From Bacteroidota bacterium (lineage in GTDB: Bacteria > Bacteroidota > Bacteroidia > 2-12-FULL-35-15), in the NCBI GenBank assembly GCA_025963715.1, contig JAOQAG010000003.1, forward strand, positions 1-34,874: a DNA stretch of 34,874 nucleotides, in the 5' to 3' direction. Position numbers and translations under genes: made by a program. Shown here piece after piece: positions 3,785 to 28,801 of the stretch. Under the pieces are notes generated by a model. The model was not told the DNA's origin and did not search any database. It worked only from the letters and a program-made list of their open reading frames with translations. Position 1 is the stretch's first letter, and the number at the start of each line of letters is the position of its first letter.

Positions 3785-3819
3785 GTTTATATTTTAATTC
3801 TTTAAGATGTTTTTACCCC

Positions 3820-3981: not shown

Positions 3982-4021
3982 TGTGTTACACAATCTTTTA
4001 ACCTGACTAATTTTAAAATAC

Positions 4022-5973: not shown

Positions 5974-5980
5974 ACATACA

Positions 5981-6007: not shown

Positions 6008-6019
6008 ATATCATAAACA

Positions 6020-6712: not shown

Positions 6713-6716
6713 TGAG

Positions 6717-6850
6717 CTGTGTATTGGAACGCAGATCAAAAATGATTTTTATGATGTACAAAAAGATCGCCTGTGGCGCTTATGATCAAATTATGATTTG
6801 ATTTTAGTACAAATTTATCAAACGGGTATTAAATGGTAATTTTATTTGTA
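6717..6850 (+). repeat. Direct repeat flanking the small lipoprotein gene (copy 1)
   Basis: This stretch aligns along its length with 7342-7473. The first 46 nt (6717-6762 against 7342-7387) differ at one base, and the remainder shows substitutions and small gaps. Both copies keep a short hairpin CGCC-NNN-GGCG (6768-6778 here; loop TGT here, TTT in copy 2). The repeat begins just after the racemase stop codon. It may also serve as the leader of the lipoprotein gene. Confidence 0.8.
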
Positions 6851-6891
6851 TTATTTACACACAGTACCACGCATCACTATCTCAATAATCC

Positions 6892-7308: not shown

Positions 7309-7341
7309 GATTATTGATACTACAAACATTCATGAGACGAA

Positions 7342-7473
7342 CTGTGTATCGGAACGCAGATCAAAAATGATTTTTATGATGTACAAATAGATCGCCTTTG
7401 GCGCTTATGATTTTTTATGATCTGATTGGAGTACAAATCGATCAACAAGTATTAAATAATAATTTTATCTGTA
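7342..7473 (+). repeat. Direct repeat flanking the small lipoprotein gene (copy 2)
   Basis: This is the second copy of the repeat at 6717-6850, offset by about 625 nt in the same orientation. The near-identical 46-nt core is followed by a more diverged half ending AATTTTATCTGTA (AATTTTATTTGTA in copy 1). Confidence 0.8.
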
Positions 7474-7499
7474 AATCAATTACGCAATAACACACGGCG

Positions 7500-7740
7500 C
7501 AGCAATCACAATTAAAAAGCAATACTCATCCGGGTAGACGCTTTTGATCTTGTGCGGCAATAGCGGGAGTAATTGCCCGTGGTGTCATATAATGTGTAAA
7601 ATCTTTAATTAGTATCAGATCAAGGGAAAAGAACCAATTGGCAATTATTAGCCGCGGTTCTTCTGAGCGCCAGCGGAAGAAGAAATTGCATTACAAGATC
7701 GAAAGGCTTTTTGTTACTTTTTGGCCGCCAAAAAGTAAAA
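7500..7740 (-). repeat. Diverged dispersed element (copy A, minus orientation)
   Basis: Read on the minus strand, this segment gives in order ACTTTTTGGCGGCCAAAAAG, TTCTTCCGCTGGCGCT, ACCGCGGCTAAT, ACTCCCGCTATTG and CCCGGATGAGTATTGC. The same blocks in the same order, with substitutions and gaps, occur on the plus strand at about 28828-29020. The shared order of five blocks supports common origin. Neither copy encodes a protein I recognise. Confidence 0.7.
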
Positions 7741-7787
7741 AGATAAATGTTGTGATCGTTTTTATTTGATCCTGCAAGCATTCATGA

Positions 7788-7814
7788 GATCCCGGGTCAG
7801 GCCCGGGATGACAG
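7788..7814. repeat. CCCGGG palindromic repeat (copy 2)
   Basis: This 27-nt unit is identical to 51-77 and has one mismatch to 10729-10755. It is preceded by CTGCAAGCATTCATGA, a stretch resembling the sequence before other repeats here (for example near 7320 and 10543). Confidence 0.85.
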
Positions 7815-7868
7815 TCTTTTTTTATGATTTAGATAACAACGTTGCGGGTAACCGTTCAAAAGGAGAGA

Positions 7869-8975
7869 TTACTTATACACATCCTCCATAAACCCGTAAT
7901 CCAACTGCTCCACATTCCCCGCCGAAAATAATATAATGAACGTATCAAACTTACTGATATTACTGCGTGTAGCAGCATGATCACGGTCTTTGATGTACTC
8001 ATCATCCAATTGATGCACCTCCCGGTTATAATACCAGAATTCCGATTCGGAGCTGAAACATTGCTGCATCCAGCTGTTCCAGGCCCAAACATGACAAAAA
8101 CTATCACCGATCAGCAATACTTTTTTATTTTTTACATTGGATTGTGATTCAACCGTCGAAAAATAATTATTATTCTTTTCCAATGGCATCAGCAGATTGG
8201 CGGCCGCTTCAATATCAACGTCGGGTGTCCAGGGAGTATTATTTTTTTTATTGCTGATCGTGTTTTTAATTGAAATAGCGGTGGTGCCGGATAAATACGT
8301 GCAAACGGAATCAAAACAACGCGCTGCATACGCCTGTGTCCAGTGCACTCCGCCTTTATTACACACCGCAAACGGATATTTATTTTTTTCGGCAATTCCC
8401 AATTCATTAAAATCCAGGTACGTAATTGCGTTTTGTTTGAACGCATTTTTCAGACTTTGATAAAAGCCATTGATCAGTGCAGGATGTTTTACACTGTCCG
8501 CCAGAAACTCGCTGTACACAATATTTTTATCCGGCGCAATTACCCAGATCACATTTTTCCCTGCCGCTTTTAATGAATCGCTGAATTTTGAATAACGCTT
8601 TATATACAGATCCAATTTACCTTCCGGAAACGTTTTATCATCAAAATAACCGCTCACATACCGGAACAAATATCCCTGTTTGCCAATGTGCACATCCTGT
8701 ACATTGATCTTATTGAACCAGCTGTATTCGAGCTGATGATGCACACGTGTAAAACCGGGAAACAAACCAAACTGGTAATTGATATATTTTTCGGTAGTAT
8801 CCTGGTACCTGCGTGAAAAATAATCGGGCAGGTTAAATGTTGTTTCCGGTGGTTTCGGATAATAGCCTTCCAGCGGCTTGTCCTTGATAAGATGCAACGG
8901 CGAAAATAAAAAATGCAGCAGCAGGCAGATGAAAAACAGCAGAAAAAATAATATGTTGAGCGTACGTTTTTTCAT
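7869..8975 (-). CDS. AlgX/AlgJ-like SGNH acetyltransferase-family protein
   Basis: The 368-residue protein has an N-terminal membrane anchor (about residues 6-25) and an extracytoplasmic SGNH-type domain. It carries VLLIGDSFCHVW, with the nucleophile candidate S292, and GGVHWTQ, with H211. AlgX/AlgJ proteins usually have Asp two residues before this His; here that position is Gly209. It overlaps the upstream MBOAT gene by one base (TGATG). That pairing is the classic arrangement in which an AlgI-like channel passes acetyl groups to a periplasmic O-acetyltransferase acting on a polysaccharide. The overall assignment is good. Catalytic competence is less certain because of the Gly. Confidence 0.8.
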   Translation of the reverse strand: MKKRTLNILFFLLFFICLLLHFLFSPLHLIKDKPLEGYYPKPPETTFNLPDYFSRRYQDTTEKYINYQFGLFPGFTRVHHQLEYSWFNKINVQDVHIGKQGYLFRYVSGYFDDKTFPEGKLDLYIKRYSKFSDSLKAAGKNVIWVIAPDKNIVYSEFLADSVKHPALINGFYQSLKNAFKQNAITYLDFNELGIAEKNKYPFAVCNKGGVHWTQAYAARCFDSVCTYLSGTTAISIKNTISNKKNNTPWTPDVDIEAAANLLMPLEKNNNYFSTVESQSNVKNKKVLLIGDSFCHVWAWNSWMQQCFSSESEFWYYNREVHQLDDEYIKDRDHAATRSNISKFDTFIILFSAGNVEQLDYGFMEDVYK

Positions 8976-10387
8976 CAGAAACGGAAATAAATAAAGGGAT
9001 TAAAATTCTGTCCTGATAAATACGAAGCGCTGACAATAAATAAGATCAGGCTTGCAGCGTACAAGCTATAAAGACGGATTTTATTCTGAATAAATAATTG
9101 TTCGTCGTTTTGTGTTGCATTATAAAACGGTTTGATCAGTCCGCTGAATGCAAAAAATAATGCAATACAAAGCACTGCAATAAAACGGTGATCAAATGCA
9201 TGCTGCTGCGAAAACTGAAAGGAAAACATTTTTTTGTACATCATCGCACTCACATGCAGGCTGGTATTCCGGAACAATACCCAGCCAACCGTTGTCACAA
9301 TAAATGTATACATCACTGCACTGTTTTTTTGCAGAAAATTCTTTAAGAACAAACGTTCACACACCAGGAAAAATCCGTGGTAAGCGCCCCAGAAAATAAA
9401 ATTCCAGCCTGCACCGTGCCAGAAACCGGAAATTAAAAACACGATCCACAAATTAAAATAGGTCCTGAAAATGCTGCCTTTATTGCCTCCCAACGGAATG
9501 TACAAATAATTACGCATCCAGTTTCCAAGCGAAATATGCCATCTGCGCCAGAATTCGGTAATGGATTTGGAGATGTACGGAAAATTAAAATTCTCCGGGA
9601 TCTTAAACCCCATCATCTCGCCAAGGCCAATTGCCATATCGCTGTAGCCGGAAAAATCGAAATACAATTGCATCGTGTAACCCACTGCCATCACCCATGC
9701 GGTAAGCGTATCAATATCGGCCGGAGCCAGCTTGTACAGATTGGTAACGGTTTCGCCCAATAAATTTGCGATCAGGATTTTTTTTGCCAACCCGAAAATG
9801 AAACGCATGAAACCGGCCAGCCGCATTTCGGGGGTAATGATCCGCTCCCCTTCTATCTGCCAGCCCATTTTATTGTACGGAATGATAGGTCCGGCAATGA
9901 GTTTCGGGAACATTAAAATATAGGTGAGGTAATTTTTAAAGCTGCTCAGTGATTTGTAATCGCCGCGGTACACATCGATCACATACGTAAGCGACTCAAA
10001 TGTAAAAAAGGAAATCCCGATCGGCAATGCAATCGGACTGATCCGGATCGGATCGGCATTTGTCCAGCCCAGCAGGTGATTGAGGTTGGTAATGAAAAAG
10101 AATAAATATTTGAACGTAAACAGCAAACCCAGATTCACAAACAAAGAAATGCAGAGAAAAAGTTTTTTACGTTTGGCTGAATCGCTTTTCTCAATTTGTT
10201 TGACGAGAATAAAATCCAGCGCGGTAGTAAGCAGGATCACAAAAATAAAAACCGGTCCGCCCCAGGAATAAAAAGCAATACTACCAAGCAGCAGCGTGTA
10301 ATTCCGGAATTTAGAAGGCGTTAAATAATAGCATATCAGGAACAGCGGAAGAAAATAAAATAAAAAAGGCGTGCTGCTGAAAACCAT
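8975..10387 (-). CDS. MBOAT-family O-acyltransferase, AlgI-like
   Basis: This 470-residue polytopic membrane protein has the full AlgI signature: YFDFSGYSDMAIG (about 242-254), FWRRWHISLGNW (about 279-290, H284) and FWHGAGWNFIFWGAYHG (about 322-338) with the catalytic His324. It transfers acetyl groups across the inner membrane for exopolysaccharide O-acetylation. It is translationally coupled to the SGNH partner downstream. It lies at the end of the glycan locus, downstream of a 452-nt repeat-rich gap, so it may be a separate transcription unit. Confidence 0.95.
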   Translation of the reverse strand: MVFSSTPFLFYFLPLFLICYYLTPSKFRNYTLLLGSIAFYSWGGPVFIFVILLTTALDFILVKQIEKSDSAKRKKLFLCISLFVNLGLLFTFKYLFFFITNLNHLLGWTNADPIRISPIALPIGISFFTFESLTYVIDVYRGDYKSLSSFKNYLTYILMFPKLIAGPIIPYNKMGWQIEGERIITPEMRLAGFMRFIFGLAKKILIANLLGETVTNLYKLAPADIDTLTAWVMAVGYTMQLYFDFSGYSDMAIGLGEMMGFKIPENFNFPYISKSITEFWRRWHISLGNWMRNYLYIPLGGNKGSIFRTYFNLWIVFLISGFWHGAGWNFIFWGAYHGFFLVCERLFLKNFLQKNSAVMYTFIVTTVGWVLFRNTSLHVSAMMYKKMFSFQFSQQHAFDHRFIAVLCIALFFAFSGLIKPFYNATQNDEQLFIQNKIRLYSLYAASLILFIVSASYLSGQNFNPFIYFRF

Positions 10388-10406
10388 AAATTGAGCTTAA
10401 TGTTTG

Positions 10407-10428
10407 AATCCCGATAGCTATCGGGATT
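10407..10428. repeat. Perfect 22-nt palindrome centred on ATAGCTAT
   Basis: The sequence AATCCCGATAG is immediately followed by its exact reverse complement, with no loop. It lies 19 nt upstream of the MBOAT start codon. It could be a REP-type repeat or a dimeric protein-binding site. Its position next to a gene start leaves the latter open. Confidence 0.75.
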
Positions 10429-10520
10429 AAAGTTAGAAAGTTTAAGGAAATGGGAGGGGATTTTGGGATTAATTTACTGGAGGGTGATTAGCATTTCTAA
10501 AGTACAGAACACACCCCTAA

Positions 10521-10536
10521 CCCCTCTCAAGAGGGG
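10521..10536. repeat. CCCCTCTCAAGAGGGG palindromic core (third copy)
   Basis: It shares the core and part of the flank (CACCCCTAACCCCTC against the CCCCTGCCCCTC arm) with the inverted pair at 3820-3981. It is preceded by ACAC and followed by AATGCATTCTGCAAGCATT. Confidence 0.75.
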
Positions 10537-10628
10537 AATGCATTCTGCAAGCATTATAATTGATGTTTTTATTTATAATTTTTATTAAAAATACTGCTAC
10601 CTTAAAATTGAACGGCGGCAATTCTCCT

Positions 10629-10693
10629 CGTAGGCGCCAGGCTCTGCCTGGTGACGTTGCAAATTTGTTACCAGGCAGAGCCTGGCGCCTACG
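10629..10693. repeat. 24-bp perfect inverted repeat, CGCCAGGCTCTGCCTGG type
   Basis: The arms 10629-10652 and 10670-10693 are exact reverse complements around a 17-nt loop. Each arm contains the smaller palindrome CCAGGCTCTGCCTGG, so the element can fold as one long stem or as two small hairpins. It resembles a paired REP element. Confidence 0.85.
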
Positions 10694-10728
10694 CATACTG
10701 CAAATTTCAAATTTGTTCTTCTTTGACA

Positions 10729-10755
10729 GATCCCGGGTCAAGCCCGGGATGACAG
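10729..10755. repeat. CCCGGG palindromic repeat (copy 3)
   Basis: Same unit as 51-77 and 7788-7814 with one change (TCAAG for TCAGG). The palindromic core stays CCCGGG-N5-CCCGGG. Confidence 0.85.
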
Positions 10756-10807
10756 TTCGAAGGGAAATTGTTCTCTGATTTAACAAACACAGCATCTGCG
10801 CACAGCA

Positions 10808-10841
10808 AACTTTGAACTTTAAACTTTTGAACTTTGAACTT
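10808..10841. repeat. AACTTTG heptamer repeats (left set)
   Basis: Units AACTTTG, AACTTTA, AACTTTT, then (after one G) AACTTTG and a partial unit run up to the stop codon of the GT2 gene. A matching set in inverted orientation lies at 13318-13350, just upstream of the carbamoyltransferase. The two sets bracket that two-gene unit. Confidence 0.75.
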
Positions 10842-11586
10842 ACTTAAAAAACTGCCCCAGTTTCGAAAGCGGCTTCCTGATCAACGTAAACATTCCCGGT
10901 TTTAAGCCGTTAAGCTCCCAGGCTTTTTTATCCTCGCGGTTGGCTTTAAGCCTGTTCATCAAGCTTGCATTACTTTTCCCTCCCACACGCATTTTCACAA
11001 GCACTTCCGGAATGTAAGCCGTGCTGCAATTATATTTGTGCAACAGGCGCAGCATCATTTCGTAATCCGCGGCGGAACGCAAGGTGGTATTAAAAACACC
11101 AAACTGATCGTAACATTTTTTACGGACAAAAAAAACAGGGTGCGGCGGCATCCAGCCTTTTAAAAATAATCCCGGCGTATATTCCCCGGATTTCCAATGC
11201 CGCGTGACTTTTGCCGTGTTTTCACGATCCACATATTGCAGATCGCCGTACACAGTATCCGTATTTTTTGTTTCAAACGTTTTTACAATCTTGCTGATCA
11301 CGTTTGCATCCGTATAAAAATCATCTGCATGCAGGATCGCGATCACATCGCCGCTTGCCGCTGCAATGCCTTTGTTGATAGCGAAATAAATACCATCGTC
11401 CTTTTCAGAAATAATTTTTGAGATCTGCGAATGATATTTCGCAATGATGTTCAGGGTTTCATCGCTTGATTTTCCATCCACAAGAATGTATTCAATATTT
11501 TTGTAATCCTGCTCCACTACCGACCGGATCGTCGCCTCTATCGTGGCAGCGCTGTTGTAACAAACGGTGATAACGGAAACTTTCAT
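10840..11586 (-). CDS. Family 2 glycosyltransferase (WcaA-like)
   Basis: The 248-residue GT-A enzyme has a nucleotide-binding N-terminus (MKVSVITVCYNSAATIEATI), LVDGKSSD at about 35-42, EKDDGIYFAINKG and the metal-binding HADD (D88, D89). LRSAADYEMMLRL supplies the C-terminal acidic motif. It would add a sugar to a lipid-linked glycan on the cytoplasmic face. It starts directly after the stop of the carbamoyltransferase with no gap, so the two are co-translated. Donor and acceptor cannot be told from sequence. Confidence 0.92.
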   Translation of the reverse strand: MKVSVITVCYNSAATIEATIRSVVEQDYKNIEYILVDGKSSDETLNIIAKYHSQISKIISEKDDGIYFAINKGIAAASGDVIAILHADDFYTDANVISKIVKTFETKNTDTVYGDLQYVDRENTAKVTRHWKSGEYTPGLFLKGWMPPHPVFFVRKKCYDQFGVFNTTLRSAADYEMMLRLLHKYNCSTAYIPEVLVKMRVGGKSNASLMNRLKANREDKKAWELNGLKPGMFTLIRKPLSKLGQFFK

Positions 11587-18802: not shown

Positions 18803-19866
18803 ACTAATGAAACTAATTGTTTAACCCAGGTATCCGGTGTTATTTTTTTTGCTTTCGCGATGCTGTTCTCCGACATGCCAATCAGCTTTTCATTCCCGGC
18901 ATTCATCATACGCAGCAAGGCTATTTTCAGCTCAGGAACGGCTCCTGCTTTGTAAATATAACCATTAAAATCATTTTGTACAAAAGCGGTCCTTGCCCCT
19001 GTTTCATCCGAGCAAATGATCGGGAAACCGGCGGCCGCAAACTCGTGCACCACCACTCCCCAGGGTTCAAAATGGCTCGGCAGCACAAACACGCCGCTGT
19101 CTTTTATAAACGGCGCCATGTCCGCAGGCTGTACAAATCCGAAATGCCGGATCTGCGGATGCTCCACCGGCTTTACATCGCCGGTTCCCAAGCACCACAA
19201 TTCCCATTTATCCGGGTTATTTTTTTGCTCCGGCGCTTCCTGTACTTCAATAAATGCCTGCCACAGATCGCGGATCCCTTTGTGTTCCGTATAACGACCC
19301 ACATAAATAAAGCGTTTGGGGAAATTCGCTTTTTTCTGTGCTGCATACTGCAAATACTGATCGTGAAAAAAATCAAAATCGCAGGAATAAAAACCGGTAA
19401 GGGTGTTTTGTTTTTTAAAACCCAAACGAACAGCATATTCCTGTTGCAGATCACCGGGAACCCAGCAATGTGTAAAATGATTCAGGATCTTAAACGGACT
19501 GATCAATGTGGCAATGTATTGTTTTAACGAGCCTTTCCATTGATTATCAAAACCAACGATCACCGGAATTTTCTTTTTCCAGGCTTTGCAAACCTGCAGG
19601 TAACCTTTGTCCATCCAACCACTGCTGTAAATGATCGCAGGGTTGATCCCTGAAATTAATTGCTGCAATTGCTCATCAGCAGCATAATCTTTACGGTTGT
19701 AAATTTTTATATTTCCGGAAAACGAAAAGTGAAAAGGCGCTTCATTGTTCACTTCCCAGCGCACAATGTGTACTTCAACATTGGGTTCGGCAGCCAGTTT
19801 TTCCACACAGGCTAAAAAATAAGCGGCCAGCTCCGAATAAAGAAAAACTATTTTTTTCGTTTCCAT
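18799..19866 (-). CDS. Family 4 glycosyltransferase
   Basis: The start is placed at the ATG giving METKKIVFLYSELAAYF. A longer in-frame version to 19926 would only translate the end of the upstream gene out of frame. The 355-residue GT-B protein has YVGRYTEHKGI (start of the donor-binding half) and the E-x7-E motif in HFEPWGVVVHEFAAAGFPII, followed by CSDETGA. It overlaps the upstream phosphoesterase gene by 19 nt and the downstream epimerase by 4 nt. It would transfer a sugar during glycan assembly; specificity is unknown. Confidence 0.9.
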   Translation of the reverse strand: METKKIVFLYSELAAYFLACVEKLAAEPNVEVHIVRWEVNNEAPFHFSFSGNIKIYNRKDYAADEQLQQLISGINPAIIYSSGWMDKGYLQVCKAWKKKIPVIVGFDNQWKGSLKQYIATLISPFKILNHFTHCWVPGDLQQEYAVRLGFKKQNTLTGFYSCDFDFFHDQYLQYAAQKKANFPKRFIYVGRYTEHKGIRDLWQAFIEVQEAPEQKNNPDKWELWCLGTGDVKPVEHPQIRHFGFVQPADMAPFIKDSGVFVLPSHFEPWGVVVHEFAAAGFPIICSDETGARTAFVQNDFNGYIYKAGAVPELKIALLRMMNAGNEKLIGMSENSIAKAKKITPDTWVKQLVSLV

Positions 19867-20909
19867 CTTTTTCTGATGATTGAAAAAATGAGGAGGAGTA
19901 TCAGTGCCGATCCAAAGCCGATCCAAAAATATTGATGATGCAGCATCAGCAACGTTAAATACGGCAACATACGGTAATTAAATTGTTGTTCGGGCGCTAC
20001 TGTTTTGCTCCAGTAATCCATGTTGTACGTTTCAACCGGATCGAGCTTTTGACCGGTAAAGGAAATGCCATTGAACGTAACTGCTCCGTTATTTACATTT
20101 ACCAATAAGGCCGCATCCCTTGGCAGATCGCGGAGAGCGGTTTGCATGAACACTACATTTGTTTCTGCATCTTTATCATAAAAAAAAGAAGCAGGCGCTG
20201 CAGCACCCATGGAACCCGAGCACCAGAAGGTGTTTACATTTTTCGGGATGGATTTTAATAACGGTTTTATATCGGAATCAAAATTAGTGGAAAGCGCCGA
20301 GCGGGTATTTCCTTCAAATAAGTTTTTGTATTTATCACTGTTTTCAGACCAAATAGGGCGGTGAGAAAAAATAAATACGTTTTTTATTTTCTTTTCCGTG
20401 ATCTGCGAAAGCGCTTTTTGGAACATTTCCAACTGTTCACTTTTGATGCTGCCGTTGCTTTCTTCTGTATTCAGTACAATAAACAATTCCGACTGAACAG
20501 TAAAATAAAAATATTCCTTCCCGAATATTTTCTCGTACATGTTCCCGTTTGCCAGATCGTGATTCCCAACGGAATTAAACAGCGGCATTTTTAATTTATC
20601 AAACAAACTTTTCTGATAATGCTGCAGATAAGTATCATTCACATCCAGGAACAGATCGCCCAAACTCATTAAAAATGAAGGGTGCAGGGCATTGAGCGTA
20701 TCAATGTTTGCCTGCAGCGACGACGCCGGAAAAGAGGAAATATTGGTGGATGCACCGTGAAAATGCCCGCTCACGATAAAAGAATAAGAAGTACCGGTAT
20801 CTTTTATTTCCAGCTTATTGAATGGCGAAATGACCTGCGCCTGCATGTTTGCAAACATCAGGAACAGTGCAACAAAGCCGCTTAGTTTATTTACGTTTCT
20901 TTTTATCAC
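19848..20909 (-). CDS. Calcineurin-like phosphoesterase with degenerate metal site, membrane anchored
   Basis: The 353-residue protein has a signal peptide (about 1-25) and a C-terminal hydrophobic segment followed by RKRWKRKK. It is therefore probably held in the inner membrane with its domain outside the cytoplasm. Calcineurin-like motifs are partly kept: GDLFLD (G84-D89), GNHD (115-118) and FSHRP (H183). The first DxH position reads HFH (H49, H51), and the usual final GHxH appears to be GSMG (232-235). It overlaps the end of the CotH-like gene by 23 nt. It may be a weak or altered phosphatase, or a binding protein. Confidence 0.75.
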   Translation of the reverse strand: MIKRNVNKLSGFVALFLMFANMQAQVISPFNKLEIKDTGTSYSFIVSGHFHGASTNISSFPASSLQANIDTLNALHPSFLMSLGDLFLDVNDTYLQHYQKSLFDKLKMPLFNSVGNHDLANGNMYEKIFGKEYFYFTVQSELFIVLNTEESNGSIKSEQLEMFQKALSQITEKKIKNVFIFSHRPIWSENSDKYKNLFEGNTRSALSTNFDSDIKPLLKSIPKNVNTFWCSGSMGAAAPASFFYDKDAETNVVFMQTALRDLPRDAALLVNVNNGAVTFNGISFTGQKLDPVETYNMDYWSKTVAPEQQFNYRMLPYLTLLMLHHQYFWIGFGSALILLLIFSIIRKRWKRKK

Positions 20910-23496
20910 CTTTAATAATTGCTTCTACATCGTCCACATCTTCCGTAATGGAAATACCGTTGGCAACGATGGTTGATTTTTTTTCTCTTAAATAATTTTT
21001 CTTCACATTGGTTAATTTCAATCCGGTTACAGTTACCCGTGCATGGCCCGCACCCGGCTTATTTTTATAAGCAACCAAACCAATTTCGGAATCGCTGATC
21101 TGTACATCTTTCAAATCAATGGTGGATTCGTCTTCACCGGAAATAGCAATGCGTGCATTTTTAATTTTTACGCCGCTGCCTTTCAACTGCGTTCCGGCTT
21201 TTATGTTAAGCGCTTTGTTTCCGGCGCCATCCACATAAATCCCGGTTACGGTAATTTTTCCCAGCATGATGTCGAGTGCATTTTCCGCGCATTTTTCAAA
21301 CACACAATTGGTCACGGTTCCTTCCGAATAATCGGCATCCAGTGCATCGTCGTGCATTTTGTGAAACAAACATTCTTTGAAGGAAAAAGTGGAACGGATC
21401 AGGTTGATACAATCCTCTGCTTTGCAATGGTAAAAGCTGCTGTAGTTACATTCAAAAGGCGATTCATAAAACGTAATTCCGCCGGTGCGGTTCCACAGGT
21501 GATCGTGGATTTTTGGCAAATTACGAACAGTCACATAATTCCAAACCGATTTTGGTGCGTTGATAATTTCTATTCCTTCGGCTGTAGAATCACTCGATTC
21601 AATGATCACGGGCTGATCTTCCGTTCCGGTAAAAATCAGCGCAGAATAAGAAACCAGTTTTGCATTGTTTTTCAGATCGATGTCAACGCCTGCATTTGCC
21701 ACCAGCTTGTAACCCGCAGGGATCACCAGGTCTTTGTCAACCACTTGTTTTCCGGGTTTGATCATGATAAGGTGCCTTGTTTCATCCACCGTTAAAAAAG
21801 AAAACTCATTGACATTTCCTTTTTCATTTTTCATTTCTTCCGCAATAAATTCACTGTCAGTATGCGGGAACGGGAACACTTTCGTTTCCTGTTCTGTGCT
21901 TGCGCCCAACACGCTGTAATTCACTTTCAGTGATTGGATCAGCGAATCGTCCCAGGTAATTCCGGTTGGCATTGTAAATACATATTCTTTGTACTCCACG
22001 TATTTATTCCGTTTTTTTGCAGGCAGTATGATCGGCATAAGCGGCACGCCCAGGCTGTTGCCGATGGAAATGGATTTGATCTCCGTTGGTAACGATTCGA
22101 TGGCGCCGATCTGTAAATGAACCTGGTTGTTGGCGACAAAATCAAAATACGCCTGGAACGCTTTGGGAGCAGACAACAATTCCACTATCATTTTTTGATT
22201 TTTATAATATCCTTCTTTCTCAAATTTTTTGTACGGGAATTCTTTGTAGATGATTGCCAGGTTTTTTTTCAATTCCTGGTTTTCTCCGCTAAAAAACTGA
22301 TCCAGATAAGCCGGTTTCGAAATGCGCTCCAGTTCCCGGATGTAGGCTTTAAAAAATTCAGGATCGCTGAACAAAGCCGTGTGCAGATCGGGGTAATAAT
22401 GCGCGCTGTCTAAATTTTCATATTTATAATTTCCGGAAATATCCTGGAAAGGAAATTGCGTAAAGCTTTCATACGCCACCGGCTCCAGCTTTGCCGTTAC
22501 CGGGTTGTAATAATATTTCAAATCGCTCCAGTCGATGCTGTGCTGCCCGCCTACCAAATCGATCACAGCATGGAATTTTGCCAAACGCGGAATGTCAAAC
22601 ACCTGCCCTACATTCAGCTTGCGGCTGCGAAAACCTTCCATCAGCGCAATGGCTTTCATGTAATATTTTTTCTGCACCGAATCTTCCAATACATTGTCCT
22701 CGCGGTATGCTTCCACATTGGCAGAATAATAACTCGCAAATTCAGCAACCGGCTCCGAATTTTCAATCTCGTTGTAACGGTCCACCCAATACAGATCGGG
22801 ATTAAAACGAATGATCGGCCCGGGTTTGCGGTTATTGTTCGCAATTAATTCGGGATCAAAATTTTCTTCCACCGCATAAATTCCCCAATCTTTTCCATTT
22901 ACCGAAACATTGATGAATTTGTAACGCAGCGCAATAATATCTTCCTGTTTCATCAATTGATGATAGATCCATTCGTAGATATAACCACGCGTTCCGGGAT
23001 GCTGGATCGAAAAACGTTTCATACCCATAAACGCATCCTTGCCTTTTATTTTTACACGGAACGACCATTTATTATCCTGCAAATGGTCGGTCATGTGTCC
23101 TTTCAAACGCAGTTTCACATCCATTTTTTTGCCTTTGTATTCCAGCGTTGCAGGCACGTAATCGCCGTCAATATCATTAATGATCACACCGCGTTCCAAT
23201 GCTTTTTCGCGGTTTTTCGCCAGTTCTTTGTAATCTTTTTCTTTGATCTCAATGGAAATGTTTTCCGCATTGGCATCCATGCCTTTCCAATAATTGGAAG
23301 CCACGGTACCTGCAAAATCCCACAAGCCGGTATACCCTTTTGTACGCACTGCTTTGGAAGCGATAAAGCCGCCGGTAATGATCCCAATCACAATACAAAA
23401 CAGCAGCACTTTTTTAAAAAAGCGCTTGTATTTTTTTATAAAAAGCACGGTTTCCCGGATGCCGGTAGTATTTTCCTGGTTCTTTTTAATTTCCAT
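20887..23496 (-). CDS. CotH-like protein fused to a right-handed beta-helix, likely pseudokinase
   Basis: This 869-residue protein has a transmembrane anchor (about 28-46), a CotH-type kinase-like domain (about 80-440) and a parallel beta-helix (about 640-840) shown by repeated short turns such as DDALDADYSEGTVTNCVFEK. The CotH part keeps KWSFRVKIKG and VNGKDWGIYAVEEN. Compared with the CotH at 24862, the metal-site positions are changed: the Asn aligns with D325, and the DxD pair of LYDTDWGF aligns with E343 and F345 in VAYESFTQF. It lies 3 nt after the Wzy gene. Kinase activity is doubtful; binding a glycan or protein through the beta-helix is plausible. Confidence 0.75.
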   Translation of the reverse strand: MEIKKNQENTTGIRETVLFIKKYKRFFKKVLLFCIVIGIITGGFIASKAVRTKGYTGLWDFAGTVASNYWKGMDANAENISIEIKEKDYKELAKNREKALERGVIINDIDGDYVPATLEYKGKKMDVKLRLKGHMTDHLQDNKWSFRVKIKGKDAFMGMKRFSIQHPGTRGYIYEWIYHQLMKQEDIIALRYKFINVSVNGKDWGIYAVEENFDPELIANNNRKPGPIIRFNPDLYWVDRYNEIENSEPVAEFASYYSANVEAYREDNVLEDSVQKKYYMKAIALMEGFRSRKLNVGQVFDIPRLAKFHAVIDLVGGQHSIDWSDLKYYYNPVTAKLEPVAYESFTQFPFQDISGNYKYENLDSAHYYPDLHTALFSDPEFFKAYIRELERISKPAYLDQFFSGENQELKKNLAIIYKEFPYKKFEKEGYYKNQKMIVELLSAPKAFQAYFDFVANNQVHLQIGAIESLPTEIKSISIGNSLGVPLMPIILPAKKRNKYVEYKEYVFTMPTGITWDDSLIQSLKVNYSVLGASTEQETKVFPFPHTDSEFIAEEMKNEKGNVNEFSFLTVDETRHLIMIKPGKQVVDKDLVIPAGYKLVANAGVDIDLKNNAKLVSYSALIFTGTEDQPVIIESSDSTAEGIEIINAPKSVWNYVTVRNLPKIHDHLWNRTGGITFYESPFECNYSSFYHCKAEDCINLIRSTFSFKECLFHKMHDDALDADYSEGTVTNCVFEKCAENALDIMLGKITVTGIYVDGAGNKALNIKAGTQLKGSGVKIKNARIAISGEDESTIDLKDVQISDSEIGLVAYKNKPGAGHARVTVTGLKLTNVKKNYLREKKSTIVANGISITEDVDDVEAIIKGDKKKRK

Positions 23497-23499
23497 TTT

Positions 23500-24810
23500 T
23501 TATTCAATCGCTAAAGATAATTCTTCTTCTTTTTTTACGTAAAATTCCGGGTCGGAAATAAGCGCCAGGATCATTAAAAAAATGATCGTGTGCGGGTTAA
23601 GCGAGCCCACCAGCCAGGATTCGAAAAAAGCGGTAAACATAATCACAAACATGATGGGATATGCCAGCGTGGTGTTTTTGGCAGCTTTGGCGAAGGCGAG
23701 GATCAGGGAACGCAGGTAGATTAGCAATCCAACCAATCCCATATCCATCCAGAATGTTAAAAATGTATTGTGGATCCCGCCCTGGTGACCCATTTTTGAT
23801 AATAAATCCCAATTGCTGCGCATGTAATGCTCATCATAACCAAAACCTCTCCCGATAAAAAAGTTTTCCTGTACGTGTTTCCAGGCAAAACCCCAGGCTA
23901 CATAACGTCCGCTTCCGTCGTCGAGGGTTTTTACCCTTAAAAAATCACCCAGACCAAGGGTGGTCACAATGCTGGCAAGATTGCTGCTCACCAACTCCAC
24001 ACCGAACACAAACAGGATCGCCATCAGGAAACCGAAAAACAAATTGATCTTGTAAAACCGCTGGAACAATACAAATACGAAAACACCTACAATGGAATTC
24101 CGAGATCCGGTAAGGAGCATGGATGCCACGATCACCACATAAATGAAAGCTACCTGCCGCTGATCGAACAGGTTGGGTTTTACATTTTTGATGACGGAAA
24201 ATAAAAGAAACACCAGGAAACAGAACAGCCCTAAGCCGTTTGGATTTCCCAACATTCCGCGATACCGGCCGCTGCTGTACGCCACATTATGACTTACCAC
24301 GATCAGCAAGGCGCTGATGAGCAGGATGGTGACGACAAAATAAACGAGATTGCGGAAAAAAGCCTCGCCGTTGTCCCTGTATATTTTTGCAAAATAATTG
24401 GGGATCACAAGGATCATCAAATAATACGAAAGTGTTTTCTGGACGCTGATCCCGAAGGTTTCAGTAAAACAAAGGCAATAGACCGAGATGAGAAAAAACG
24501 GAAAAAATAATTTGTATAATGAGTTGAGCGGTTGAAATTCCTTGCTGTCGAAAAGAAAAAATACCGCGAGCAGCGTGATGTAAATATTTTTGGCGGATTT
24601 GGCAAAAAAGAGGCGGAGCTCGTAACTATCGGAAAGAATGAGTATGAAAAAAAAACCGAGCAGCATTTCTTCGTACATTCCCTGACGTTTCATCAGCAGT
24701 AATGTTGCAGGAAGAACGATGTAGATAATCGGGCCACCATACATACCTGTAACTAGCCAGACAAACAGAATGATGTAAAACTGAATATTTTCGGTATAAT
24801 ACGCTTTCAA
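23500..24810 (-). CDS. O-antigen polymerase/ligase family membrane protein (Wzy_C type)
   Basis: The 436-residue polytopic membrane protein carries GNPNGLG (188-194), TGSRNS (234-239) and a large loop with GSGRYVAWGFAWKHV and GIHNTFLTFWMDMGLVG (about 345-361). These are the signatures of the Wzy_C (WaaL/Wzy) superfamily. It would polymerise repeat units or ligate a finished glycan to its carrier on the periplasmic side. It is embedded between the two CotH-family genes, 51 nt after one and 3 nt before the other. Polymerase and ligase cannot be separated on this evidence. Confidence 0.88.
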   Translation of the reverse strand: MKAYYTENIQFYIILFVWLVTGMYGGPIIYIVLPATLLLMKRQGMYEEMLLGFFFILILSDSYELRLFFAKSAKNIYITLLAVFFLFDSKEFQPLNSLYKLFFPFFLISVYCLCFTETFGISVQKTLSYYLMILVIPNYFAKIYRDNGEAFFRNLVYFVVTILLISALLIVVSHNVAYSSGRYRGMLGNPNGLGLFCFLVFLLFSVIKNVKPNLFDQRQVAFIYVVIVASMLLTGSRNSIVGVFVFVLFQRFYKINLFFGFLMAILFVFGVELVSSNLASIVTTLGLGDFLRVKTLDDGSGRYVAWGFAWKHVQENFFIGRGFGYDEHYMRSNWDLLSKMGHQGGIHNTFLTFWMDMGLVGLLIYLRSLILAFAKAAKNTTLAYPIMFVIMFTAFFESWLVGSLNPHTIIFLMILALISDPEFYVKKEEELSLAIE

Positions 24811-24861: not shown

Positions 24862-26622
24862 TTAATTTTTAACAATAATTCGGTTACTTTCCGTCAGTTT
24901 AAAAAATGCATTTAACTGATCTGCTTGTAATTGCGGACGTTTTTTTGCAAAATCCCGCAATACCTCCACATTGTCAAGCCATTGCCCGTAGGTACCGATC
25001 ACGCGCCAGCGATTGATGTGCTCGCGCATTTCGGGCGCCATAAGGCCCTGCATGCGGTCCACTTCTGAAATAAGATGCTTAGTGGAAAACTGGTGATCGA
25101 TCAGGTATTGAAAACGCTGCGTGAACGCTTCTACAAAGGATTTATTTTTAATAAGCGCGCTGAATAAAATGCCTACACTGCCCGTTCTCTTTGCTTTTTC
25201 GAGCAAATTAACGGATGGAACACTTGCTGTATTATACCCGAATCCCCAGTCGGTATCATACAGCATCCAGCGCCAGCGGCCATCCCGGCAACCGGCTGTA
25301 TCAGTTGGTTCCGGAGTTTTGTAATGCCAGAATTTTACGTTATTATTGGGCCAATCGCTGTTGCAGAAATAAATATTTACGGCAAGAAAATCAATGAAGC
25401 TTTGAATGTCTATTTTGGAAGTAAGCTCCTCGTAATTTTGCTGCTGCGACAAGTCGTGCTTCTGAACAAATTCCAGCAATTCTTTAAAGCTTTCGGTATC
25501 TCCTTTTTTTCCGTGGGAAAGCACACCGTTCAGTTCTAAAATGCAAAGACTATCAGCCGCCATGTGGTATTTATTCGCCAGGTAATTTTCATCAAAACGT
25601 TCCCGGATGTTGTGGATGCCCCAATATTCGCCATTGATAAACACAATGGCAGAACGGTCGGCCTGGATATCCACGTGCGCATCTTTCATGAGCGACTGGA
25701 TCAACCCATCGCGGAACATGGTCTTGTCCCAGTCGTTACCGGAATTCCGCAAAATAAACGAATTGAACGTATGTACGGGATAACCCGGAAATAAAGGATA
25801 ATCAAGGCTGGCAGTCCCGTATTTTTCACGAAAATTAATCCGCAATGATTTTTGTGCGTAGCCGCGTGTGGCATTTCCATTGATGCGCACGCCCACGTTT
25901 GCTTCAAAACCGGCTTTACCGCCCGGCTCATACAATTCAATGTGTGCATCGCGCTCGGCATCGTTACCGCGATCGAGGTAATTGGACGGATATTCCCACC
26001 AGGGCAGATCAAGTGAAATATTTTTGCGAATGTAATTGTCTTTATCGCCGTAACTTTTACCCAATACATAAATGCCTTTGTTGTAACCGAAAAAATCTTT
26101 GTAATCCACCACCAGCGATACAACCGGCAGGCTATAACGCGCCGTTCCTTTGGGATCTACAAAAAAAGTTTTCATCAGCTCTTTGCTTTTTGCAAAATCT
26201 TTTACAGCAATGGCGCGCAATACAGTTCCTTTAAAAACATCGCCAACAGGCGGGGCCCAGCGTGGCGAAGTCGGAATGGCCGACAATACATTTTCTTCTT
26301 CTTTTACATTGATCACCACCGGATGCTTGTAAACAGGCGATAACAGCGTTGGTTCGGAGCCATCGAGTGTATAATAAATAACGGTTCCGGGTGTGGGCGC
26401 TGTGAGTTGTACTGCAAACGGCGCTGCATAAAAACCGCCGGAAGCTGATGTTACAGGAGGTTGTAGCTCTTTTGATTTTGCAAGTGTAATTACATCCGGC
26501 TTGATCGGATAGGTCCAGAAAGTGCATAAAAACAAGAGCAGCAGCAATCCGGCTAAAATGGCGGCGGTAAGCATTTTAAACCTTGTGGAGATGCGCTGTT
26601 TATTTTCCCGGATCAGTTTCAT
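24862..26622 (-). CDS. CotH kinase family protein with N-terminal chitobiase-like domain
   Basis: The 586-residue protein has a membrane anchor (about 18-36) and a chitobiase/beta-hexosaminidase C-terminal-type domain (about 60-150, VIYYTLDGSEPT). The CotH domain (about 165-560) follows. It shows QKSLRINFREKYG (K258), FINGEYWGIHNIRERFDENY (about 328-347), the catalytic-metal region NSDWPNNNVKFW (D423, N427/N428) and LYDTDWGFG (D456, D458). CotH proteins are atypical secreted or membrane kinases. All recognised active-site residues appear present. Its start overlaps the VTC gene stop by one base (TAATG). Its substrate could be a surface protein or glycan; unknown. Confidence 0.88.
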   Translation of the reverse strand: MKLIRENKQRISTRFKMLTAAILAGLLLLLFLCTFWTYPIKPDVITLAKSKELQPPVTSASGGFYAAPFAVQLTAPTPGTVIYYTLDGSEPTLLSPVYKHPVVINVKEEENVLSAIPTSPRWAPPVGDVFKGTVLRAIAVKDFAKSKELMKTFFVDPKGTARYSLPVVSLVVDYKDFFGYNKGIYVLGKSYGDKDNYIRKNISLDLPWWEYPSNYLDRGNDAERDAHIELYEPGGKAGFEANVGVRINGNATRGYAQKSLRINFREKYGTASLDYPLFPGYPVHTFNSFILRNSGNDWDKTMFRDGLIQSLMKDAHVDIQADRSAIVFINGEYWGIHNIRERFDENYLANKYHMAADSLCILELNGVLSHGKKGDTESFKELLEFVQKHDLSQQQNYEELTSKIDIQSFIDFLAVNIYFCNSDWPNNNVKFWHYKTPEPTDTAGCRDGRWRWMLYDTDWGFGYNTASVPSVNLLEKAKRTGSVGILFSALIKNKSFVEAFTQRFQYLIDHQFSTKHLISEVDRMQGLMAPEMREHINRWRVIGTYGQWLDNVEVLRDFAKKRPQLQADQLNAFFKLTESNRIIVKN

Positions 26623-27317
26623 TAAAAAAGAATCCTTTCGATGCCTTGTAAATATTTGGAATTTTTGGTCATGGCAAAGGGCAATCCATTCCCGATTATT
26701 TTTGCTTCCGTTTCCATCGAGGCATCGTATTTTAATTCAAGCACGGTGGAATGATGGTCAACAGATTTGTTCAAAAAAGTATTGTGCCAGTAGCCAATCT
26801 TATAATAGGTTAATTCGCGATCGATGGTGATGCGGAAATTTTTATCTTCCGATAAATAATAAGTACGCGTGTAACTATTGAGCAGCGCAGGTTGCAGCGA
26901 CAGCATCAGGTCGCGCACATGCAGGGGCAGATCGGCAGTAGCGATGGCATTGATGATTTGTTCCTTCGAAAAATTGGTATCGAGTGTAAAGGGTAATAAG
27001 TTGTACGAATCTTTTTTACCAAGCAATCCTTTTTTTATTTTTAATTCAAGAATTGGTTTTTCAATCTTGCCAAACAAGTCGCCATACCAGCGGATGCGCA
27101 CTTTTAAACGCTCGGTCTCTCCTTCCACATTATCATAATAATTGTTGAAGCCGATGGTATCAAAATAAATATTGTTGATGCTGCGTTCGTAAAAGATCTC
27201 GGAAAATGCCGCCGGATGATATTTCAACAACTGTTTTACTTCTGCGGAAGCATGATCAGTAATTAAAAACTTACGCTCAAAACGTAATTCTTCCGGTTGT
27301 TGTTTGGTAACAGGCAT
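26622..27317 (-). CDS. VTC-domain polyphosphate polymerase family protein
   Basis: This compact 231-residue protein is a stand-alone VTC domain (tunnel fold of the CYTH/TTM superfamily). It keeps the charged residues lining the tunnel: ERK (14-16), RLKVRIR (70-76), ELKIK (91-95), R151, FRITID (R162, D166), LELKYD (E194, K196) and NSKYLQGI (about 219-226). Eukaryotic VTC4 uses these to make polyphosphate from ATP. Here there is no SPX domain or membrane anchor, so it is likely cytoplasmic. It lies 20 nt after DUF4956 and overlaps CotH by one base. The biochemical product is inferred from the family. Confidence 0.9.
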   Translation of the reverse strand: MPVTKQQPEELRFERKFLITDHASAEVKQLLKYHPAAFSEIFYERSINNIYFDTIGFNNYYDNVEGETERLKVRIRWYGDLFGKIEKPILELKIKKGLLGKKDSYNLLPFTLDTNFSKEQIINAIATADLPLHVRDLMLSLQPALLNSYTRTYYLSEDKNFRITIDRELTYYKIGYWHNTFLNKSVDHHSTVLELKYDASMETEAKIIGNGLPFAMTKNSKYLQGIERILF

Positions 27318-27337
27318 TGGGATCGGAGTTTTTTAGA

Positions 27338-28021
27338 CTAAAAATCGCGTGCATTGTCCATGAAGGTTACGGACAAAGAAGGGTGCAATTTTTTAATCGA
27401 TGCTTTGGCTGCTTCCAGCTTTTCAAAATTATCGAACTCTATAAAAAACGAGGCTTCAAAAACGGAAGCATTTTCATCGGTACGTTTTAATTTTAATCCG
27501 GCTGCGTGCTTTTTCAATTCTTCTGTAATGGATTGAATGCTTACGGCATCCGACAAGCTGCCGGAAATGGTGAGGTATAAATTCTGGTTTTCTGTTTCGC
27601 GCTGGTAGCGGCTATTGAACCAGATGACCAATGCAAATCCGAAAAAAGCAACGATGGTCAGCAACGTTAAACCGGCACCGCAACCAAGACCGATGGCGAT
27701 GGTCAAAAATAAATATGTCAGCTCTTCCGGCTCTTTGATGGCGGAGCGGAAACGCACAATGGAAAGTGCACCTACCAACCCGAGCGATAACGCCAGTGAT
27801 GATTTTACAACAGAAATGATGAACATGGTGGTGATGGCCAGCACCAGGAAATTGCGCGCAAATGCTTTGCGGTTGGAAAGGGAATTTCCATATTTTACAT
27901 ACAAGCGCCCGAGGGTAAAGGCGAGTACTGCGCAGATCAGGAAACTGAAAATAAAATTAGGGATTGCTTTGGGTGAAAAACCTCCCAGGTTCTGGGATAC
28001 AAATGCTTTAAGTTCGTCCAT
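27338..28021 (-). CDS. DUF4956 membrane protein
   Basis: The 227-residue protein has about four hydrophobic segments in its first 150 residues. It also carries the family hallmark LGLVGALSIVRFRSAIKEPE followed by LTYLFLTIAIGLGCGAG. The C-terminal third is a soluble domain of about 75 residues. DUF4956 proteins are often encoded beside VTC and CotH genes, as here. A role as membrane partner or conduit for the VTC enzyme is a reasonable guess but not shown. It begins 9 nt after the stop of the GT2 gene. Confidence 0.88.
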   Translation of the reverse strand: MDELKAFVSQNLGGFSPKAIPNFIFSFLICAVLAFTLGRLYVKYGNSLSNRKAFARNFLVLAITTMFIISVVKSSLALSLGLVGALSIVRFRSAIKEPEELTYLFLTIAIGLGCGAGLTLLTIVAFFGFALVIWFNSRYQRETENQNLYLTISGSLSDAVSIQSITEELKKHAAGLKLKRTDENASVFEASFFIEFDNFEKLEAAKASIKKLHPSLSVTFMDNARDF

Positions 28022-28030: not shown

Positions 28031-28801
28031 TTAATTACGACACGAATATAGCAGTTTTACAGCAAAGTTTAAGTTAAAAAAATGTAATACGCGGGCAAGG
28101 CGGTTTTTGATGCCGATCATGCGCTGACTGCCCCATTTCTGATGGTATAATGCCTTATCGCGGTCCAGCTTTTCCATGGTGGTAAAATCGTTTTTTACGC
28201 GGCCGGTGTATACATGCGAGAAGTTGGCTTTTGTAACCAATGCGTGTAAAATACTGTGCTTGCGCAGGCACATGGAAAAATCGTAATCCTGGTAATAAAA
28301 ATCGAATTTTTCGTCAAAGAACCCGGTTTTTTCAAACACTTTCCGCTCTAATAATAAACAGGCGGCAAAAAATTCCCAGCCGACTTCATATCCTAAATAA
28401 TAATCGTGATCCATGAACTTGCCTTTTACCGTTTTATAGTCAGGATCTTTCGGTGAAAAGGATTGAATACCGGGACGTAATTTTTTGATGCGTAAAATTT
28501 GGGTGAGCCAGCCTTTTTTGAAAACCAGGTCGTTGTTGCATAAACAGATCATTTCATTGTTTGTTTGTTTGATCGCGATGTTCAAAAATTTATTGTAATT
28601 GAATTTTTCCTGCGGGATGATCACCTGTACCGGATACGGATACTGGTAACCGGTTTTTAAAAATTCTTTGTTGCTTTCCATCACGATCACGTTAAACGTA
28701 TGCTCTGTTTCCGATTCCATTAATGAAGAAATGCAATTGGAGTTCATGATGAACGTTTCTTCGGTGGCGCAGAGGGAAAGTATGACTACATCTATTTGCA
28801 T
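28031..28801 (-). CDS. Family 2 glycosyltransferase
   Basis: The 256-residue GT-A protein has an N-terminal nucleotide-binding strand (MQIDVVILSL), LCNNDLVFKKGWL with NND (89-91) at the metal-binding place, and the acidic YYQDYDFSMCLRKH motif. It is the first gene of the long minus-strand run that continues into the DUF4956/VTC/CotH genes. The repeat-containing gap 28802-29101 lies upstream. It would add a sugar to the growing glycan, or possibly glycosylate a partner of the CotH/VTC set. Confidence 0.88.
   Translation of the reverse strand: MQIDVVILSLCATEETFIMNSNCISSLMESETEHTFNVIVMESNKEFLKTGYQYPYPVQVIIPQEKFNYNKFLNIAIKQTNNEMICLCNNDLVFKKGWLTQILRIKKLRPGIQSFSPKDPDYKTVKGKFMDHDYYLGYEVGWEFFAACLLLERKVFEKTGFFDEKFDFYYQDYDFSMCLRKHSILHALVTKANFSHVYTGRVKNDFTTMEKLDRDKALYHQKWGSQRMIGIKNRLARVLHFFNLNFAVKLLYSCRN

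Follow-up and report, generated by a model that had tools for sequence, protein, structure and literature searches.

A possible module for polyphosphate synthesis and export within a surface-polysaccharide operon of a Bacteroidota bacterium

The window considered here is the entire 34,874-nt contig C6 (JAOQAG010000003.1) of a 4.9 Mb Bacteroidota genome (assembly GCA_025963715.1), in which genes for a CotH protein, a VTC domain protein and a DUF4956 membrane protein lie within a surface-polysaccharide cluster (Table 1). The reading preferred here, tentatively and with a little less than even confidence, is that these genes belong to a module that synthesizes and exports polyphosphate and is tied to a surface-polysaccharide operon. 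We infer that the VTC protein would make polyphosphate from ATP in the cytosol, and that DUF4956 would conduct the chain outward through the inner membrane, the job done in yeast by the membrane segments of Vtc1/Vtc3/Vtc4. Outside, the anchored canonical CotH protein and a second CotH-fold protein, CotH2, would use the phosphoanhydride to place phosphate from polyphosphate onto a polysaccharide or its carrier, the acceptor presumably being the product of the flanking genes. An extracytoplasmic phosphoesterase, accompanied in some relatives by a lipoprotein-like pyrophosphatase, would clear leftover phosphate or pyrophosphate. The synthesis and conduit steps are suggested because VTC and DUF4956 are paired, because of the residues that they retain and because export-type partners accompany them; the use of polyphosphate as a donor by CotH is proposed because some donor would be needed outside, where ATP is not expected.

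The gene set and its conservation, the conservation of residues, the predicted membrane sides and the classes of partner were computed directly. VTC was present in 37 of 198 genomes sampled evenly across the phylum, DUF4956 in 59 and CotH in 81, and all 37 genomes with VTC contained both DUF4956 and CotH. A DUF4956 match was located within 1 kb of 40 of the 43 VTC matches; two of the remaining three had DUF4956 at 2.7–2.9 kb, and the third was a 162-bp fragment. Among 14 control genomes, VTC and DUF4956 both matched in the same three. The adjacency of VTC and DUF4956 is far beyond chance, the p-values for family co-occurrence (VTC with DUF4956 and, below, pyrophosphatase with VTC) being uncorrected for the kinship of the genomes. 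The first-pass annotation of the window had described the three families as frequent neighbours, and this holds across the sample.

The VTC family profile (22 sequences) matches the structure of yeast Vtc4 (3g3q, E 3.4e-19). Residues R12, K16, Y51, D53, R70, K72, R74, R76, Y78, E91, K93, K102, R151, T164, D166, E194, K196, S220, K221 and Y222 are invariant in all 22 sequences, and the Vtc4-type tunnel set (first-strand K, RxR, E-x-K and S-K-Y) is found in 22/22 when aligned to the Vtc4 chains, Vtc4 residue numbers having been assigned by motif, not by structure. R264, R266 and E426 are named, in the relevant passages of one study, as conserved Vtc4 residues substituted to inactivate the protein (PMC9911596), and K458 is described as catalytic in a part of another, in which basic residues of Vtc4 correspond to glutamates in AtTTM3 (PMC4641920). 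By motif alignment, two of these tripolyphosphatase-glutamate positions are basic in the window family, as in Vtc4 (R12 and K196), and one is acidic, as in tripolyphosphatases (E14 of the window protein). Simple hydropathy indicated no membrane segments in any of 39 VTC proteins. VTC is proposed, from these sequence features, to be a cytosolic polyphosphate synthase.

DUF4956 is polytopic by the same simple hydropathy measure, with three to five membrane segments in 35/35 proteins, and I88, R90, F91, R92, G111 and G115 are invariant in 34/34. In an AlphaFold2 model (pLDDT 86.9), the helical membrane part is followed by a ferredoxin/ACT-like domain at residues 145–227, which matches ferredoxin/ACT-like folds with Z up to 10.3. 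The window protein misses the cut-off for MgtC (PF02308; 16 bits against 31.4), and sub-threshold MgtC matches occur in 24/34 members at E values up to 1, the best being 1.2e-6. SIR_1592 of Streptococcus intermedius, equated with DUF4956 in this analysis, is described in the pertinent section of one paper as MgtC plus ACT with four transmembrane segments (PMC12345266). DUF4956 is proposed as an inner-membrane conduit.

The phylum sample contained 65 DUF4956 matches, and 61 loci were examined (the window, G038, G100 and G163 being excluded), 41 with VTC and 20 without. A HlyD-like adaptor was encoded within 1.5 kb of DUF4956 in 37/61 loci (23/41 with VTC and 14/20 without), and DUF2490, an outer-membrane-type barrel family, was found near DUF4956 in 10/61 (10/41 and 0/20, respectively), with one further DUF2490 gene 2.2 kb away in L063. 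The two never occurred together. An anchored CotH2 lay beside DUF4956 in one locus (L068), and one export-type partner was present in 48 of the 61 loci. The HlyD-like profile is home-made and was seeded from five DUF4956 neighbours, and all 37 of its hits in these loci adjoin DUF4956. Nine of the HlyD-like proteins were scanned with Pfam: those of L045, L061, L065 and L087 pass the HlyD cut-off, those of L053 and L093 match below it, and those of L042, L048 and L060 have no HlyD match. In L061, the genes for CotH, DUF4956, the HlyD-like adaptor, OEP (TolC-family) and VTC run in one direction, and the order in L093 is HlyD-like, DUF4956, OEP (TolC-family). The HlyD-like profile had no hit in 67 other loci (the window, the 38 relatives described below and 28 from Flavobacteriaceae), and neither HlyD nor OEP was matched by Pfam among 28 scanned window proteins. 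In a set of 299 Flavobacteriaceae genomes (so named because the contigs of L109, L110 and L134 belong to the set), VTC was detected in 26, at 28 loci, of which 15 are of CotH2 type (type B) and 13 are of type A. DUF2490 follows DUF4956 in 13/13 type A and 0/15 type B loci; Pfam confirms DUF2490 in L009 alone, and the others were assigned by a profile made from the 13 neighbours (which hits L009, E 2e-25). To judge from these gene neighbourhoods, the VTC/DUF4956 pair is usually accompanied by a partner fit to carry cargo beyond the inner membrane, the kind varying by subtype. It is possible, on balance doubtful, that VTC-DUF4956 is a polyphosphate exporter with exchangeable envelope parts (a HlyD-like adaptor, alone or joined by a TolC-family pore, a DUF2490 barrel or a periplasmic CotH2), the exported polyphosphate serving as donor for CotH-fold phosphorylation of surface polysaccharides. 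A separate arrangement was encountered in L087–L092, L094, L095 and L097–L100, a fixed trio of DUF4956 (no VTC), a HlyD-like adaptor and a signal-peptide-like protein of about 412 aa; the one scanned, from L087, had no Pfam family match.

The subtype to which the window belongs was surveyed in a collection of 84,980 species, each represented by a single genome; the queries were the VTC of the window and its closest relative among those sampled. This yielded 38 loci, mostly from metagenome bins, titled Bacteroidetes, Ignavibacteriales, Delongbacteria, Chlorobiota, Verrucomicrobia, Alphaproteobacteria, Desulfocapsa and Marinamargulisbacteria, among others. Loci L102/L068, L109/L152, L110/L151 and L134/L153, drawn in the various samples, have contigs of equal length and were taken pairwise as one contig. 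DUF4956 was present in 36/38, within 1 kb of VTC in 19 (that of L115 being an incomplete open reading frame) and at 2.5–3.1 kb, with one gene between, in 17; in L117 and L119 the contig stops before any DUF4956. A CotH2 homologue was encoded within three genes of VTC in 30/38 loci, and L121 adds a divergent beta-helix protein, encoded between its DUF4956 and VTC genes, for a total of 31/38. CotH2 was not found in L106, L115, L118, L123, L124, L125 or L127, with VTC less than 1 kb from the contig end in L115, L118 and L123. A canonical CotH homologue was found near VTC in 2/38 loci (L101 and L106; single-sequence search), and L101 has the order of the window: DUF4956, VTC, CotH, Wzy_C, CotH2, MPE (a calcineurin-like phosphoesterase homologue). 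A tree built by a quick method from 106 VTC rows, 101 of them different, requires 6 changes of the CotH2 label, against a shuffled mean of 35.1. The three-gene set was rejected as the full unit, CotH2, beyond it, being the usual partner of the window subtype. The boundary drawn around three genes in the first-pass annotation was too short, as CotH2 and MPE continue the run. Stand-alone three-gene operons do exist, in L130 and L131 and also in L120, at a contig end. In L104 (3438–5717) and L113 (6970–9252), a class-A penicillin-binding-protein gene (transglycosylase plus transpeptidase) lies directly before DUF4956-VTC-CotH2, which may indicate cell-wall rather than capsule chemistry at these two loci.

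Canonical CotH has an N-terminal hydrophobic anchor, read from the sequence, and a chitobiase-C/Fn3-associated domain N-terminal to the kinase domain; the family profile matches structure 5jd9 (E 1.9e-37). D423 and D456 of the window protein align with both catalytic or metal-type aspartates of Bacillus cereus CotH (D228 and D251), and the earlier assertion that its active-site residues are intact is upheld for these two positions. Canonical CotH is proposed, from its sequence, to be an extracytoplasmic kinase. The AlphaFold2 model of CotH2, built on a 28-row alignment (pLDDT 85.9, pTM 0.63), resembles the CotH of B. cereus (5jda) with E 2.1e-12 and a target-length TM-score of 0.68, and its C-terminal beta-helix matches, with higher root-mean-square deviation, a GH87 glucanase, GH28 polygalacturonases, the periplasmic epimerase AlgG and a PL6 lyase. 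The second aspartate position is occupied by aspartate in 20 of the 28 sequences, glutamate in 5 (including the window) and another residue in 3. Several residues of the beta-helix, most of them acidic, are better kept than the kinase-type aspartates: D695 is found in 28/28, and D717, D720, D722, D742, K761, K813 and E838 in 27/28 each. A membrane anchor or lipobox is present at the N-terminus of 29/31 CotH2 proteins, the other two being incomplete at a contig start. The flavobacterial loci L164 and L173 encode the beta-helix half as a separate gene, and the gene before it (503 or 515 aa) has no hit to the CotH2 profile; the one of these preceding genes that was scanned with Pfam gave no match, though its motifs look CotH-like by eye. 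CotH2 is thus predicted to be an extracytoplasmic protein combining a CotH fold with a polysaccharide-type domain, and it may not be an orthodox kinase. In L081, proteins of about 340–360 aa (8739–9764 and 10429–11511) flank a DUF4956 gene without VTC and are CotH-like by eye (NSDW, PYDFD); the first, when scanned, matched no CotH model, and these proteins are a possible divergent branch of CotH.

The window MPE has a signal-peptide-like N-terminus and a C-terminal hydrophobic anchor. It had no Pfam match at E 0.01 and only chance-level phmmer matches in the PDB, and it was recognized through homologues that match PF00149 (L136, E 8.5e-9, 36.5 bits; L129, E 5e-6); the orthologue in L101 scored 19.8 bits against a cut-off of 21.5. 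Some of the metal-ligand motifs of the window protein look altered by eye, and its activity is therefore uncertain. A lipobox was found in 8/10 MPE proteins, those of the window and L101 being without, and an MPE homologue occurs near VTC in 9/38 loci.

In the 38 loci, 116 operon neighbours were scanned with Pfam, which identified eight family-I inorganic pyrophosphatases; those of L109, L110, L112, L134, L136 and L137 were confirmed by single scans, and those of L132 and L135 align with them. A cysteine follows the N-terminal hydrophobic stretch in 8/8 (invariant column C17), and the lipobox rule is passed by 7/8 proteins of the alignment and 6/8 of those in Flavobacteriaceae module operons, the failures still having the cysteine. 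The residues that presumably form the active site are invariant in the alignment. The gene precedes MPE-CotH2-VTC in some loci and follows VTC in others. Within the Flavobacteriaceae, it belongs to the module operon in 8/15 type B loci (three of the eight being sources of the search profile) and 0/13 type A loci. Xanthomarina spongicola and Cochleicola gelatinilyticus are non-pathogenic carriers of the module with the pyrophosphatase, and Flagellimonas flava is one without it. At E <1e-60, the pyrophosphatase was found in 20/299 genomes, eight of them with VTC (p 6.9e-5), always in a type B operon and in the same direction; when the three alignment-source genomes are left out, 5 genomes have both (17 with pyrophosphatase and 23 with VTC, of 296; p 0.006). 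The lipoprotein-like nature of this enzyme argues for a pyrophosphate-type substrate outside. The pyrophosphatase also occurs without VTC in 12 Flavobacteriaceae-type genomes (L139–L150), seven times beside genes of about 840 aa and 387 aa (L141–L145, L148 and L149). In L109, L110 and L112, the module operons include genes for an APS kinase, a PAPS reductase-family protein and a CysN-like GTPase, with sulfotransferase genes in L109 and L110. The pyrophosphatase of these three loci could in part serve sulfation, but its lipoprotein-like N-terminus would put it across the membrane; phosphate and sulfate chemistry may be combined on one polysaccharide there.

Linkage to glycan genes was scored, with home-made profiles, wherever GT4, GT2, Wzy_C or Wzx-type genes lay no more than 6 kb from VTC. 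Such a gene was found at 17/43 CotH2-type loci, 2/23 DUF2490-type loci and 3/34 others, i.e. 17/43 in the CotH2 subtype against 5/57 in the other subtypes (p 4e-4). The profiles were partly seeded from CotH2-type loci, and the contrast is weaker once the eight seed loci are removed (9/35 against 5/57, p 0.04). The idea that the three families are linked to glycan genes in general was rejected, and the refuting condition set in the first-pass annotation, a lack of conserved linkage, has a mixed outcome, the link holding for the CotH2 subtype only. The further suggestion of that annotation, that phosphate chemistry may be used on surface glycans, finds support in the joining of a CotH fold to a beta-helix and in the 17 glycan-linked loci.

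Several observations weigh against a polyphosphate exporter serving surface glycans. DUF4956 occurs without VTC in 22/59 genomes, and 14/20 VTC-less DUF4956 loci keep the HlyD-like adaptor, so that the cargo need not be polyphosphate. At 13/61 DUF4956 loci (7/41 with VTC and 6/20 without), no HlyD-like, DUF2490 or CotH2 gene lies within the distances used. No solved relative of the transmembrane part of DUF4956 was found with Foldseek and VIA-align, which matched mainly the C-terminal domain, and this null carries no weight for the membrane part, since the structure matches cover residues 145–227 only; similarity of DUF4956 to Vtc1 was likewise not found, in searches that scarcely probed the membrane region. 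The first aspartate position of CotH2 is a histidine in 25/28 sequences (including the window) and a cysteine in 3/28; lacking this catalytic-type aspartate, CotH2 may not be a kinase, and it is classed here as a CotH-fold protein, not an active CotH kinase. A GT4, GT2, Wzy_C or Wzx hit is missing within 6 kb at 26/43 CotH2-type loci. The pyrophosphatase was rejected as an exclusive part of the module, as 12/20 genomes carrying the gene have no VTC. For S. intermedius, the available portion of PMC12345266 reports effects for the neighbouring genes and none for deletion of the polymerase gene SIR_1593. A different, highly improbable reading is that VTC is another triphosphate-tunnel enzyme, such as a polyphosphatase, and that DUF4956 moves a different cargo: the acidic E14 and the DUF4956-HlyD loci without VTC are consistent with it, but R12, K196 and the invariant lysine of the SKY motif are, by motif, Vtc4-like.

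A regulatory role, in which CotH, VTC and an MgtC/ACT-like DUF4956 would tune polysaccharide synthesis by protein phosphorylation or phosphate sensing, with no export, is unlikely. Regulation has been suggested for CotH beside pel (PMC7112168) and is consistent with the ACT/ferredoxin-like C-terminal domain and sub-threshold MgtC similarity of DUF4956; in addition, deletions of SIR_1592 and SIR_1594 shift the amount of Pel in opposite directions, as stated in a section of PMC12345266. However, CotH2 and the phosphoesterase homologues are predicted to lie outside the cytosol, and the HlyD-like, OEP, DUF2490 and lipoprotein-like pyrophosphatase partners would fit poorly in a cytosolic loop. It is quite unlikely that VTC polyphosphate is simply a store moved to the periplasm for storage or homeostasis, with an incidental glycan link. 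The stand-alone operons of L130, L131 and L120 and the 52/57 other-subtype loci without a glycan gene within 6 kb would suit a store, which would nevertheless leave unexplained both the presence of CotH in 37/37 VTC genomes and the excess of glycan genes around CotH2-type loci. The beta-helix of CotH2 might instead be the working enzyme (a lyase, hydrolase or epimerase), the CotH domain being a pseudokinase that binds the phosphate polymer, with polyphosphate acting as a counter-charge, chaperone or signal, not as a donor. This too is quite improbable; the conservation of the beta-helix acidic residues in 27–28 of 28 sequences, beyond that of the kinase-type aspartates, the best matches to GH87, GH28, AlgG and PL6 enzymes and the separate beta-helix gene of L164 and L173 speak for it, whereas the CotH part is conserved across phyla and the window also holds a canonical CotH with both aspartates.

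Several known systems come close to the module. Yeast VTC complexes couple polyphosphate synthesis to translocation, as set out in part of PMC9911596. The bacterial set resembles Vtc1/Vtc3/Vtc4 in pairing a polymerase domain of the same family with a membrane protein, cytosolic-side synthesis being the shared logic, but its 231-aa VTC is a protein of its own that has no membrane segments, and CotH and phosphoesterase homologues are added. The genes cotH, PPP, DUF4956 and DUF4832 have been described beside Gram-positive pel genes (in an excerpt of PMC7112168), and SIR_1592 and SIR_1594 (CotH) lie beside pel in S. intermedius, where their deletion alters Pel level and aggregation (in a portion of PMC12345266), in keeping with the proposed module; the first-pass annotation does not mention this Pel link. 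The same three families are in tandem beside a polysaccharide locus in both cases, but the window adds a beta-helix CotH2 and a phosphoesterase homologue to the Pel loci as described in those passages, and Pel-named Pfam families had no match among the 28 scanned window proteins. According to a passage of PMC12345266, the arrangement was not found outside Pel loci; in the genomes of the present sample, where it was counted irrespective of pel genes, it is common. The Bacillus CotH spore coat kinase (5jd9, 5jda) shares its fold with these proteins, and canonical CotH keeps both aspartates; unlike it, they are predicted to be extracytoplasmic, and CotH2 has a histidine at one aspartate and an added beta-helix. 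The L061 gene order, with a HlyD-like adaptor and OEP, recalls HlyD/TolC tripartite export, but DUF4956 takes the place of an ABC or RND transporter, and the window has no HlyD-like or OEP match. VTC proteins and CotH of Clostridium perfringens are listed in a part of a 2010 paper, together with DUF4956-size membrane proteins that bear another annotation (PMC2879425), and the families are named, without bearing on function, in passages of PMC10434189, PMC6848847, PMC7356697 and PMC2879425. Among the matches listed in literature word searches, in which subscription journals are thinly covered, none concerned CotH2, a link to HlyD/OEP or DUF2490, or such a lipoprotein pyrophosphatase, and none described a dedicated bacterial polyphosphate exporter. 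The three-family set, including its Pel link, was already known; the CotH2 subtype and the export anatomy appear to be new. It is not obvious where extracytoplasmic kinase-fold proteins of bacteria obtain phosphate energy; the proposed exporter, if real, would supply it, by a new route of phosphate energy to the cell surface; it would also provide a function for DUF4956, for bacterial VTC proteins and for the CotH/VTC/DUF4956 genes linked to Pel biofilms.

In the window itself, the region from about 8 kb to the contig end is a surface-polysaccharide cluster by gene content, with genes assigned by Pfam/NCBIfam-type scans to Acyl_transf_3, GT4, GT2, Wzy_C, a WecE-type aminotransferase and an epimerase, together with asparagine synthase-like, carbamoyltransferase and MBOAT/AlgX-like genes. 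The minus-strand run is GT2, DUF4956, VTC, CotH, Wzy_C, CotH2, MPE and GT4 (Table 1). The adjacency and shared direction of the central trio, and its position between a GT2-like gene just below the Pfam cut-off and a Wzy_C gene well above it, are as first annotated. Intergenic distances are 9 nt (GT2/DUF4956), 20 nt (DUF4956/VTC), -1 nt, i.e. a 1-nt overlap (VTC/CotH), 51 nt (CotH/Wzy_C), 3 nt (Wzy_C/CotH2), -23 nt (CotH2/MPE) and -79 nt (MPE/GT4); given this last overlap, the start of GT4 probably lies later than that of its open reading frame. Rfam and tRNA scans of the window gave no matches, and NCBIfam had no match for its DUF4956, VTC, CotH or CotH2.

Table 1. Genes of the module and its immediate neighbours in the window, with their profile matches.
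Feature	Position	Strand	Evidence
GT2-like glycosyltransferase	28031..28801	-	PF00535 E 1.1e-4; 22.7 bits, just below Pfam cut-off 23.3; upstream of DUF4956
DUF4956 membrane protein, 227 aa	27338..28021	-	PF16316 E 6.4e-17; 62.2 bits against cut-off 30.6
VTC domain protein, stand-alone, 231 aa	26622..27317	-	PF09359 E 4.5e-31; 108.6 bits against cut-off 23
Canonical CotH, 586 aa	24862..26622	-	PF08757 E 9.8e-57, 193.3 bits against 23.8; PF13290, PF13287
Wzy_C membrane protein (O-antigen ligase/polymerase family)	23500..24810	-	PF04932 E 4.9e-14; 52.8 bits against 31.7
CotH2 (CotH fold plus C-terminal right-handed beta-helix)	20887..23496	-	PF08757 E 1.1e-9, 38.6 bits against 23.8; PF13229 E 3.2e-6
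MPE (calcineurin-like phosphoesterase homologue)	19848..20909	-	Similarity through homologues L136, L129

MBOAT/AlgX-like pairs are associated with polysaccharide O-acetylation, and that of the window (7869–10387) is located at the opposite end of the polysaccharide cluster. A second VTC/DUF4956 pair lies on contig C2 of the same genome (L009, contig C2 45001–64000), accompanied by genes for CotH and DUF2490; positions 2883–4577, 5802–8111 and 9261–11339 of this locus belong to the second VTC/DUF4956/DUF2490 set and its neighbours. The C-terminus of the L009 CotH protein resembles a secretion-sorting tail, and the adjacent arylsulfotransferase (ASST) carries a Por_Secre_tail domain; this set may be a variant of the machine that is exposed at the cell surface.

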